This document shows, in pieces, positions 10,558 to 14,012 of a stretch of 44,545 bases of DNA; the first letter of the stretch is position 1; each line of letters starts with the position of its first letter. Source of the stretch: an uncultured Eubacteriales bacterium. Its GTDB lineage: Bacteria; Bacillota; Clostridia; Lachnospirales; Bianqueaceae. The DNA lies in NCBI GenBank assembly GCA_902796435.1, contig CADBPG010000200.1, positions 1 to 44,545 of the forward strand, given 5' to 3'. The notes beneath the pieces are model-generated. The model saw only the letters and a program-made list of their open reading frames with translations. It had not been told where the DNA came from and did no database searches. The translations under genes were made by a program, and so were the position numbers.

Positions 10558-10560
10558 GAC

Positions 10561-10589
10561 TTGCAATGTGCAGAACAGTATGATATACT
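10561..10589 (+). promoter_or_regulatory. Promoter directly after the DUF6273 gene
   Basis: TTGCAA (10561-10566), a 17-nt spacer and TATACT (10584-10589) preceded by TGA (extended -10) make a good promoter. It sits in the gap after the last gene and points to the small RNA candidate, not to a protein gene. Confidence 0.6.
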
Positions 10590-10595
10590 AACACA

Positions 10596-10675
10596 GTAAT
10601 CTCTATAGTGCATATGCGCCAACTCAAGCGCATACATGGAACACTTTACGGGCTGAAAAGCCCGTATTTTTTTTT
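10596..10675 (+). ncRNA. Candidate small RNA of about 80 nt
   Basis: The segment lies between a promoter and a strong terminator and has no credible reading frame. It can fold into a 5' hairpin, TATGCGC (10613-10619) pairing with GCGCATA (10628-10634) and closed outside by AGTG (10607-10610) with CACT (10642-10645), followed by the terminator hairpin. This is typical of a trans-acting small RNA. I do not recognise a known family. It could instead be only the terminator region of the ftsH operon. Confidence 0.45.
10648..10675 (+). terminator. Strong intrinsic terminator
   Basis: A perfect 7-bp GC-rich stem ACGGGCT / AGCCCGT with GAAA tetraloop is followed by a run of nine or more T. It ends the ftsH operon and the candidate small RNA. 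Confidence 0.9.
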
Positions 10676-11021
10676 ACCCTTACAGAAATCCGAAGTTTGA
10701 AAATGGACGGTGTAAACCTGAAGGGCTTACAACCGGACGTTTTCAAAACCTCGGATTTCGCCTCCCTACGAGACCGAAACAGCGAAGCTGTGAAAGGTCG
10801 AGTAGGGGGCGGGGTGCGAGAGCACGAAGTGCGCAGCGCACCGGTAAGGGTAATGTAATGACCTCGGATCCCGCCCTTATACGAGGATGGAGCAGCGCAG
10901 CTGCGAGAGTCCGAGTATAAGGGCGGTGCGCGAGAGCACGAAGTGCGCAGCGCAACGGTAAGGGTAGTGTAATCTAAAGGTCTCGGATTTCGCTTCTTTA
11001 TGAGGACAAAGAAGTATCAGT
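10676..11021. repeat. Tandem structured repeats (two units of 113 and 119 bp plus partial copies)
   Basis: Unit A starts with TCGGAT at 10751, unit B at 10864, and a truncated third copy at 10983. Each full unit holds two nested hairpins. In A the first is CGCCTCCCTAC (10759-10769) with GTAGGGGGCG (10802-10811); in B the same stem is CGCCCTTATAC (10872-10882) with GTATAAGGGCG (10915-10925). The bases differ but pairing is kept, and a GA/GA step and inner hairpin are conserved. The second hairpin carries GCACGAAGTGC in both. Units end with GGTAAGGGTA. A minimal unit without its hairpins lies inverted at 10676-10693. No open frame spans the region. It may be an interspersed element or a structured RNA. 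Confidence 0.75.
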
Positions 11022-11066: not shown

Positions 11067-11123
11067 AAAACGCATAGATAAGAAACCAACTTATGCAAAG
11101 TCGGTTTTTTATCTATGCGTTTT
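11067..11123 (-). terminator. Long inverted repeat, terminator of the XRE gene
   Basis: A 24-bp near-perfect stem (11067-11090 with 11100-11123) around a 9-nt loop has A/T runs at both outer ends. It lies 23 nt downstream of the XRE gene stop and can act in both directions. Confidence 0.75.
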
Positions 11124-11146: not shown

Positions 11147-11494
11147 TCACTTCTTTTCAATCGAAGGAGTATCGATTCCGGTCAATCGGATCCCTGTCAG
11201 CAAAAGATCTAAAAGTTGCCCCTGCTTTTCCTGCGGAACACTTTTTAAGCTATGCAGCAGATGTTCCCATCGTTGATCCGCGTTTTCACCTTTGATCAAG
11301 TAATCCAGACTCTGTCCAAGAATCGTACTTAAATGGATCAGATTCTCTACTGATAAACCAGTTAAGCCTCGTTCGACCTCGCTGAAATGCTTTACGGAGA
11401 TGCCAAGCATTTCTGAAATTTCTTCCTGCGTGAGTTTCCTTTCTTTTCTGCAGGCCTTGATACGCAGCCCCATATCTTTTTTATAATCAATCAT
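11147..11494 (-). CDS. XRE-family (HTH_3) transcriptional regulator
   Basis: The 115-residue cytoplasmic protein has a Cro/C1-type helix-turn-helix at about 10-64: LRIKACRKERKLTQEEISEM, then VKHFSEVERGLTGLSVENL. The C-terminal 45 residues (about 70-115) are probably for dimerisation or ligand sensing. It has an ATG at 11494 with AAGGTGAAG upstream. It is divergent from the gene for the ribbon-repeat surface protein, and its promoter overlaps the TTGACA of that gene, so it probably represses both. Base composition around it is more AT-rich than the flanking operons, which may mark an acquired region. Confidence 0.9.
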   Translation of the reverse strand: MIDYKKDMGLRIKACRKERKLTQEEISEMLGISVKHFSEVERGLTGLSVENLIHLSTILGQSLDYLIKGENADQRWEHLLHSLKSVPQEKQGQLLDLLLTGIRLTGIDTPSIEKK

Positions 11495-11621: not shown

Positions 11622-11667
11622 AGGAGGTATGAGAAAAACTCGGGTTTTTCTCAATCAAATCTCATGA
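11622..11667 (+). promoter_or_regulatory. Leader hairpin and 12-codon mini-ORF between ribosome site and start
   Basis: AGGAGG (11622-11627) lies 36 nt before the ATG at 11664, too far to serve it directly. Between them is a perfect 9-bp hairpin, GAGAAAAAC (11631-11639) with GTTTTTCTC (11644-11652). An ATG at 11629 opens a 12-codon frame that ends in TGA overlapping the main start (ATGA). Either the hairpin brings the site near the start, or leader translation is coupled to the main gene. Confidence 0.5.
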
Positions 11668-14012
11668 AAAAACTATTATCTTTTGTGCTGATGGCTGTCA
11701 TAGTCATCGCCTCTCTGGCAACCCCTGCCTTTGCAGCGGAAGAGTATCCAGAGGTCACAGTAGGAACGCAGGTAGAAGTAGAAACAGTAGAAGGTGAAGA
11801 CCAGACCTTTGTCTTTACAGTACCTGCGGATGGTTTGTATTGCTTTGCTTCATCATGTACGGATGATACAGATCCGTTTATGAAATTGGGAACAGAGCCT
11901 GACAGTGATGATATCGCTTACAACGACGATTCTTCTGGAGACTATAATTTCAAGAAAACGCTTTCCTTAACTGCAGGTTATGTCATTTACTTGACGGTAG
12001 GTTCTAATGATGGCGGTGTTGTTCCGTTCATCATCACGACACTTGACGAATGTCCGCATGAGGATTGTTTATTCTATAATGAAGAACCGGCGAACAGTGC
12101 AAACACTGGAACAAAGGCACATTGGTATTGCCCTGATTGTGAATTGTATTTTGCTGAAGAAGATGAAGAGTTCCTCACACCTATCTCTTATGACGATCTG
12201 ATCATTCCAAAGATCGAATGCGATCATAGCGATATGGTCTTCGTCGAAGAAGTCCCGGCAACATTTGAAGAATCAGGAGTCATTGCGCACTGGGAATGCC
12301 AGATTTGTGGAGATTCTTTCGAAGACGAAGCAGCAGAGTTTTGGGTGAGCGAAGATGATCTTCGCATCCCGGTGTTGGAGTGCGCACATGAGCATCTGAC
12401 CTTTGTTGAAGAGGTCCCGGCAACGGACACGGAGGAGGGATGCAAGGAACATTGGTATTGTCCTGACTGCGAAAAATACTTTGAAGATGAAGACGCAGAA
12501 TGGGAGATAGATCCTGAGGACCTTGTCATATCGATAGCCTGTTTGCACGAAGGCATCTATTTCGTTGAAGAGATCCCTGCCACTGAGGAAGAAGAAGGCG
12601 TCAAGGCCCATTGGTACTGCCCGGACTGTGACAAGTATTTCTATGATGAAGATGCAGAATTTGAGCTTTATGAGGATGAACTTGTCATCGAGAAACTCTG
12701 TAGACATGAAAACATGGAATATCTCGAGGCCGTAGAACCCACGTATAAATCGGCTGGCCGTAATGCGCACTGGCACTGCCTGGATTGCGGCATGCGCTTT
12801 GAGGACGAGAATGGTGATTATCAGATCGTGTGGAGATATGATGTCCTGATCCCGCCGCTGAATGTTGCAGATTGCCCGCACGAAGAAGTCGTTTTTGTTG
12901 AAGCAGTAGAGCCTACCGAAGAAGAAAGCGGTCACATTGCCTACTGGGAATGTACAGAATGCCACTATTACTTCGCGGACGAGTCGAAGGAGCACATGTA
13001 TGAGGATGAAGATGTAATTACAAACATCGATGACTGCAAGCATGAAAACCTCGTTTATGTCGACGAAGTCCCCGCAACAAAAGAAGAGGACGGTCATATC
13101 GGATACTGGGAATGCCAGGATTGTGAAGAAATGTTCTCTTCGGAAGAAGCAGTACCGAAGAACAAATTGTATTTGAATGACATTGTCATCGACAGCCTGT
13201 GCGATCACGAGCATATGGTGTTCCATGAATATACGGCACCGACCTGTACTGAGTGGGGTAATAACCCTTATTGGGAATGTGAAGATTGCGAACGCTATTA
13301 TTATGACAAGGAAGGCACGAAAAAGATCACCGATAAGATGATAGACGGCCTTGAGCCGATCCCGCATAAGTTCGGCCCCTGGGTCACGACCATACAGCCT
13401 ACGCTTACAGAAAAGGGCATCCAGACCCGTTATTGTGAGTATGACGAATCACATACAGACACACGTACTATTCCGATGCTGAAGGATATCAAACTGGCCA
13501 CTGTATCCAGTGTAAAATCTTCTTACAGCTATACCGGCAAGGCGATCAAGCCGAAGGCCAAGGTCAAGATGGATGGCAAAACGCTTAAGGCCGGTACGGA
13601 CTATACCATTTCCTACAGCGCAAACAAGAAGGTCGGCAAAGCTACGATCACCATCAAAGGCATCGGCCTGTATGGTGGAACCCTGAAGAAGACCTTCAAG
13701 ATCGTTAAGGCAAAACAGCCGATGACGGTCAAAGCAAAGAATGCAACTGTCAAATACAGCAAGGTCAGGTCCAAGAAACAGACGCTGAAGATCAGCAAAG
13801 TCGCGACTATCAAAAAGGCTAAGGGCACTGTGACCTACAAAAAGGTTTCCGGCAATAAGAAGATCACCATCAATAAAAAGACGGGTCTGATCACTGTAGC
13901 AAAGGGAACCAAGAAGGGTAAGTATACCGTCAAGATCAAGGTATCGGCCAAGGGTACTTCCAGTTACAAAGCCGGGTCGAAGACGATCACAGTAAAGATC
14001 ACGGTTAAATAA
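11664..14012 (+). CDS. Secreted surface protein with eight Cx(H)...CxxC ribbon repeats and Ig-like domains
   Basis: The 782-residue protein has a signal peptide (about 1-24, cleavage after AFA) and a beta-sandwich resembling the pre-peptidase C-terminal fold (about 30-125). Eight repeats of about 48-55 residues follow, plus a degenerate ninth (about 130-600). Each repeat has C-x-H-E near the start, a VPAT-like step and HW-x-C-x-x-C near the middle, with D/E-rich ends, so each could bind one metal ion through Cys, His, Cys, Cys. The C-terminus holds an Ig-like module (SYTGKAIKPKAKV to FKIVKA) and a Lys-rich Ig-like module. No sortase motif was seen. The same C-terminal modules occur in the next gene. 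Its function is unknown; adhesion, wall binding or metal storage are possible. Confidence 0.85.
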   Translation: MKKLLSFVLMAVIVIASLATPAFAAEEYPEVTVGTQVEVETVEGEDQTFVFTVPADGLYCFASSCTDDTDPFMKLGTEPDSDDIAYNDDSSGDYNFKKTLSLTAGYVIYLTVGSNDGGVVPFIITTLDECPHEDCLFYNEEPANSANTGTKAHWYCPDCELYFAEEDEEFLTPISYDDLIIPKIECDHSDMVFVEEVPATFEESGVIAHWECQICGDSFEDEAAEFWVSEDDLRIPVLECAHEHLTFVEEVPATDTEEGCKEHWYCPDCEKYFEDEDAEWEIDPEDLVISIACLHEGIYFVEEIPATEEEEGVKAHWYCPDCDKYFYDEDAEFELYEDELVIEKLCRHENMEYLEAVEPTYKSAGRNAHWHCLDCGMRFEDENGDYQIVWRYDVLIPPLNVADCPHEEVVFVEAVEPTEEESGHIAYWECTECHYYFADESKEHMYEDEDVITNIDDCKHENLVYVDEVPATKEEDGHIGYWECQDCEEMFSSEEAVPKNKLYLNDIVIDSLCDHEHMVFHEYTAPTCTEWGNNPYWECEDCERYYYDKEGTKKITDKMIDGLEPIPHKFGPWVTTIQPTLTEKGIQTRYCEYDESHTDTRTIPMLKDIKLATVSSVKSSYSYTGKAIKPKAKVKMDGKTLKAGTDYTISYSANKKVGKATITIKGIGLYGGTLKKTFKIVKAKQPMTVKAKNATVKYSKVRSKKQTLKISKVATIKKAKGTVTYKKVSGNKKITINKKTGLITVAKGTKKGKYTVKIKVSAKGTSSYKAGSKTITVKITVK

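Follow-up and report, generated by a model that had tools for sequence, protein, structure and literature searches.

Results

Organisation of the locus

The window, the whole 44,545-nt stretch of DNA that was analysed (contig CADBPG010000200.1 of an uncultured Eubacteriales bacterium, assembly GCA_902796435.1), carries an array of hairpins downstream of a DUF6273 gene (Table 1). The interval between this gene and the array (10560-10675) holds a -35 box (TTGCAA) and a -10 box (TATACT) at a spacing of 17, followed by two hairpins, TATGCGC/GCGCATA and that of a terminator with a T-run, and is about 81% identical over 151 bp to the orthologous locus in genome G001. Judged from these features it is likely a small-RNA gene, and it gave no match to an Rfam family. 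On the other side of the array, a near-perfect 26-nt inverted repeat with T-runs (11067-11123) is probably a two-way terminator serving the minus-strand HTH gene at 11147-11494. A 782-aa ORF lies further on (11664-14012) and has no Pfam match; its relatives come from clostridia of the rumen and gut and from Methanobrevibacter MAGs and match mostly over the last 100-180 residues, which suggests a shared C-terminal domain.

Table 1. Elements of the hairpin array, in positions of the window.
Element	Position	Strand	Basis
P1, 5' strand (ACCCTTAC)	10676-10683	+	pairs with 10844-10851 in RNA and DNA folds
P2, long variable hairpin of the full copy	10685-10759	+	inverted repeat, fold
P3 of unit 1: stem, tandem G.A step, short stem, GAA/GAAA internal loop, C(GAA)G loop	10760-10810	+	repeats, alignment, fold
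P4 of unit 1, with C(GAA)G loop	10813-10842	+	alignment, fold
P1, 3' strand (GTAAGGGT)	10844-10851	+	RNA and DNA folds
Unit 2: base of the P2 3' arm, P3 (about 10871-10926), P4 (about 10927-10954), second P1 3' strand	10862-10966	+	Rfam match, fold
Unit 3: decayed remnant, P2 3' base and P3 without its apex (CTTCTTT...AAAGAAG)	10982-11015	+	repeat family D3, sequence

The array as a member of Clostridiales-1

Both main units of the array reach the gathering score of Rfam family RF01699 (48 bits), with 49.5 bits and, for the match of unit 2 at 10840-10965, 55 bits. A fold of 10676-10853 and an alignment with 25 other copies also recovered the P1-P4 three-way junction, including its tandem G.A and its internal loops of purines. 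On this sequence evidence, membership of the window feature in Clostridiales-1 (RF01699) is near certain, and the window holds one full and two partial copies of this known repeated element of gut clostridia. Clostridiales-1 was reported in 2010 as a structured-RNA candidate without assigned function, listed as likely RNA, neither cis-regulatory nor a riboswitch, and occurring in Clostridiales and the human gut (Weinberg et al., 2010, PMC2864571); a later functional account was not found in the literature beyond that table. The family itself is already known, and what is new here are the orientation, position and loop traits of its copies.

An earlier note, made from the sequence alone, had described two adjacent units, and these were recovered as direct-repeat families D1, D2 and D3 with a spacing of 113-119. 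Their differing main stems, CGCCTCCCTAC/GTAGGGGGCG and CGCCCTTATAC/GTATAAGGGCG, do both pair around a kept GA/GA step, and the second hairpin with GCACGAAGTGC is present in both units. Other parts of that description were reassigned. The supposed hairpin-less inverted copy is no copy at all: positions 10685-10703 are the 5' arm of P2 and pair with 10741-10759 (inverted repeat I2); the two supposed unit borders are the sequence TCGGAT, which belongs to the P2 3' arm, and GTAAGGGT, which is the 3' strand of P1 and pairs with ACCCTTAC. The truncated third copy stands as a degraded remnant, specifically a P3 minus its apex. With the roles of P2 arm and P1 strand so assigned, the array consists of a full junction and 5'-truncated repeats, not of equal tandem units.

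In folding, the complete copy forms a closed three-way junction P1-P4 (10676-10851), whose first strand lies directly 3' of the T-run of the terminator-like hairpin, and unit 2 is without the 5' strands of P1 and P2. Unit 1 folds with a z-score of -10.3 as RNA and -8.0 as DNA, and unit 2 with -5.2, both better than all 200 shuffles.

Covariation and conservation of pairing

Among 26 aligned copies, all 28 consensus pairs show two-sided changes. Two-sided cells numbered 203, against 58.5 in shuffled alignments, with a score of 0.745 versus 0.215 and at most 0.18 in partner-shifted controls. A covariance model of P3-P4 (13 pairs only, with misaligned P4 columns) was left out of the results.

Pairing was also compared between orthologous copies, with the reservation that some broken pairs fall in stretches that are misaligned between the most diverged copies: in P2, 94 pairs were the same, 32 changed on both sides, 6 changed via G-U and 19 were broken, and in P3 the corresponding counts were 83, 11, 6 and 22. 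In G001, the window copy has an orthologue preceded by the same terminator and by a DUF6273 protein with 70% identity; both arms of the orthologue's P2 have been largely rewritten with pairing kept, and its P1 reads CTCTTAC/GTAAGA. Hairpin pairing is under selection, and the structure is largely kept between orthologous copies in sister species, the window copy included; pairing of the strand is upheld after insertion as well. Covariation, both among copies and between orthologues, strongly supports the earlier suggestion of selection on a folded single strand.

When the G001 orthologue (L024) is set beside window units 1 and 2, the P3 apex is found to be identical in both tandem units of that orthologue. 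Their outer stems are different, though each still pairs, which looks as if the apices had been homogenised between the units.

Distribution and sites without a copy

Counting copies across the genome and its relatives, as the earlier note had proposed, gave 14 Clostridiales-1 matches in the window's own genome and 10-18 in three congeners. The family occurs in 13 of the 41 genomes searched (its own and 40 relatives), patchily across the order, and was absent from all 14 control genomes (14/14). Viral contigs, searched with one strict P3 pattern, and plasmids and phages, searched by BLAST, gave no match, a result that at the low sequence conservation of the family excludes close relatives only. 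A related-locus scan of genome contigs returned distant protein relatives only, with no orthologous locus among them.

Tandem arrays are common, and that of G039 has the layout of the window array, with 5' truncation after the first unit. In one of its arrays (L127, G039:C1:1032209-1032955) five near-identical tandem units were seen, with the P1 5' strand in the first only.

Copies at atpB-atpE, C58 and C163 are shared between members of the genus, their sites being orthologous by their joined flanks. The C61 site is without a copy in two congeners, the C137 site is without one in G001, and the C228 copy is only a remnant in G002. G013 has near-identical copies with unrelated upstream flanks, and at its C316 locus the related G006 and G010 have the promoter without the element; two G039 sites lack the element in G060 and G061, as does the end of atpB in G004. 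These comparisons are between species: a missing copy could in some cases have been lost, and the exact junctions are blurred. Read from the sequences, orthologous sites without a copy represent insertion or loss. There is good support for reading the Clostridiales-1 copies as mobile-type repeats that are kept in the form of folded sense strands. Among loci inspected by eye, no consistent target duplication was found, a possible 5-bp duplication being seen at G013:C20 and none at the others. Compared with MITE/DDE elements, the terminal P1 strands covary rather than forming conserved terminal inverted repeats.

Orientation and position relative to genes

With genes called as the longest flanking ORF, the element lies in sense orientation at 32 of 34 loci between co-directional genes (p = 7e-8), some of these loci being mutual orthologues and so not independent. 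In the one closed genome, in which orientation was compared with replication (dnaA at 1.06 Mb), 9 of 12 loci run with the fork, and two co-directional loci oppose replication and follow transcription.

The 5' ends of Clostridiales-1 copies mostly abut a stop codon, a terminator T-run or a -10 box. In 27 of the 49 scored copies the stop codon of the upstream ORF lies between -6 and +14 nt relative to the start of the element, often at its first base. About seven copies begin 5-7 nt (12 in one of them) past the first base of a -10 hexamer whose -35 spacing is 17, and others, the window copy among them, follow a terminator T-run. The C-terminus of atpB (...ME, stop) is unchanged relative to relatives without the element, and the stop position is likewise conserved at the G039 2308k site. 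The genes adjoining the copies share no common function.

Folded strand as RNA or single-stranded DNA

Almost all predicted pairs are Watson-Crick: G-U makes up 2.9% of them in 69 Clostridiales-1 copies (per-copy median 2%). In the same genome set, the G-U share is 14.5% for 26 T-box leaders and 8.8% for 103 terminator-like hairpins. Loops of the form C(GNA)G account for 76 of 210 in Clostridiales-1 and for 1 of 157 and 2 of 103 in the RNA controls, the G-U and loop counts alike resting on predicted folds and these two RNA controls only. Terminal hairpin loops follow C(GNA)G/C(GNNA)G, with no UNCG among them; among the GNNA tetraloops of P3 and P4, half are GNRA and the other half have a pyrimidine in third position. 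Unusually stable DNA mini-hairpins are known to follow the rule of GNA and GNNA loops closed by G-C pairs (PMC4686876), and the authors of the 2010 survey made the converse argument when they called another motif RNA from its UUCG loops (PMC2864571). P3 keeps a tandem G.A in Py-GA-Pu context and a GNA/GNNA internal loop, neither of which discriminates RNA from DNA, and an A.C or C.A mismatch is kept in P2 of many copies. Because of the loops and the few G-U pairs DNA is favoured for the selected strand, while orientation is compatible with either; on these predicted folds, the selected folded sense strand appears slightly more likely to be ssDNA than RNA.

Candidate partner enzymes

The earlier note had proposed a transposase partner of the TnpA-REP/Y1 type. 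Y1 transposase genes are commoner in carriers (12/13) than in other genomes (13/27; p = 0.013, uncorrected for kinship), yet G039, which has the most copies of all genomes (19), holds broken Y1 remnants only, the carrier G012 has none, and no Clostridiales-1 copy was found on the contig of the own genome's Y1 gene; with so weak and inconsistent a link, Y1/RAYT was set aside as partner. A Y1-domain gene is present in all four genus members, encoding about 680 aa where complete. One such protein (L134, G000:C138) has about 685 aa with a long C-terminal extension, its counterparts having about 675 aa in two other genus members and being cut off in the third. At L164 (G034:C24, about 797-1309 and 1772-1895), an IS200-type Y1 ORF precedes a weak Clostridiales-1 match by about 500 bp; no other neighbourhood of this kind was noticed.

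Reverse transcriptase shows no association with the family (7/13 carriers versus 13/27 others, p = 1.0), and G001 has 18 copies and no RT; an RT-mobilised retroelement was rejected, since RT does not track the carriers. Integron integrase (TIGR02249) was likewise rejected as a partner, none being found above cut-off in 40 genomes.

Discussion

Our preferred, still tentative, explanation is that Clostridiales-1 is a dispersed repeat of mobile type, non-autonomous, whose folded sense strand is under selection, with ssDNA slightly favoured over RNA. This strand would be the selected form, and a protein would recognise it through P3 and P4 with their tandem G.A step and GNA/GNNA loops; the ssDNA form would be the non-template strand exposed during transcription, and a trans-acting ssDNA enzyme or recombination may spread the copies and make the 5'-truncated tandem repeats. 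Counting against this explanation, orientation follows transcription, which RNA explains at least as simply, and no partner enzyme was found among Y1, RT and IntI, nor a consistent target duplication. The more specific proposal that Clostridiales-1 is not an RNA gene but a structured ssDNA mobile element, which an ssDNA recombinase inserts in the direction of coding exactly at the ends of genes, at terminators and at promoter starts, is conceivable but rather unlikely.

The sense orientation would equally suit a transcribed RNA module in mRNAs, that is, a stable and probably protein-bound barrier after the stop codon or at the leader +1, protecting or separating mRNA segments and kept for that benefit. 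This is a serious possibility, in keeping with the location of copies at stop codons within operons (atpB-atpE) and right behind -10 boxes, with structure kept at orthologous loci and with a very stable RNA fold, but it does not sit well with the near-absence of G-U pairs, with loops unlike those of same-genome RNA controls, with the many copies, the window one included, that lie after a terminator, or with neighbour genes of no common function and a patchy presence. The Rfam label, a free-standing small RNA gene in many copies, is very doubtful: most copies lack a promoter of their own and lie against the upstream gene end, and in several promoter copies the +1, as placed from the spacing, would fall in or after the P1 5' strand, so that P1 could not form in the RNA, even if the closed P1, the strong covariation and, in some copies, an own promoter at P1 speak for it.

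Movement of a REP/MITE-type element by a Y1 transposase, whether TnpA-REP or IS200-like, is improbable. It would fit a palindromic, intergenic and multicopy element with DNA-like loops, as well as the excess of Y1 genes in carriers and their presence throughout the genus, but not the state of Y1 in G039 and G012, the absence of a copy beside the own genome's Y1 gene, or an orientation that tracks transcription rather than replication. That there is no selection at all, the palindromes being perfected by replication template switching with both arms rewritten together, is highly improbable, as this process would erase the tandem G.A, the GNA/GNNA internal loops and, in P2, the A.C/C.A mismatch, all of which are conserved, and leaves orientation and position unexplained; in its favour, both arms of P2 are rewritten between orthologues and other helices change less, and two-sided changes far outnumber one-sided ones, and template switching may still add to the speed of P2 change.

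The orientation bias, the abutment on stop codons and transcript boundaries and the DNA-type loops provide testable alternatives to what Rfam has called an RNA since 2010. If the ssDNA reading were true, part of the catalogue of candidate bacterial RNAs might be folded DNA, and the loop and G-U test could help to sort candidate RNAs.

Comparison with known systems

BOX-type repeats of streptococci are dispersed, modular, structured repeats with internal tandem modules, and Clostridiales-1, compared by description, resembles them in its dispersed modular layout with tandem modules. The earlier description of a mobile MITE- or REP-like element holds in so far as copy number and sites without the element point to a dispersed mobile-type repeat, and does not hold as regards REP/RAYT identity. 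Like REP/REPIN sequences with TnpA-REP (RAYT), which may need a Y1 enzyme that acts on ssDNA in folded form (PMC6006769), Clostridiales-1 is short, intergenic, palindromic and present in many copies. Instead of a 21-65 nt hairpin with a conserved foot tetranucleotide, however, it is a junction of about 160 nt whose P1 ends are variable and covary, with no fixed tetranucleotide, and it is sense-oriented, was not found to flank a cognate Y1 gene in the window's own genome and is without a consistent partner gene, Y1 included.

Integron attC sites are folded-strand elements beginning at a gene's stop codon. Clostridiales-1 shares with them a covarying folded-strand element that starts at the stop codon, but it is dispersed, with no cassette arrays and no evident R/L core boxes; attC-like motifs also turn up in RNA searches (PMC8632094). 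By covariance model the window units belong to the same family as Clostridiales-1 (RF01699), from which the window array differs in joining a full copy to 5'-truncated tandem copies and in a P2 tip unlike the usual G(CTTG)C.
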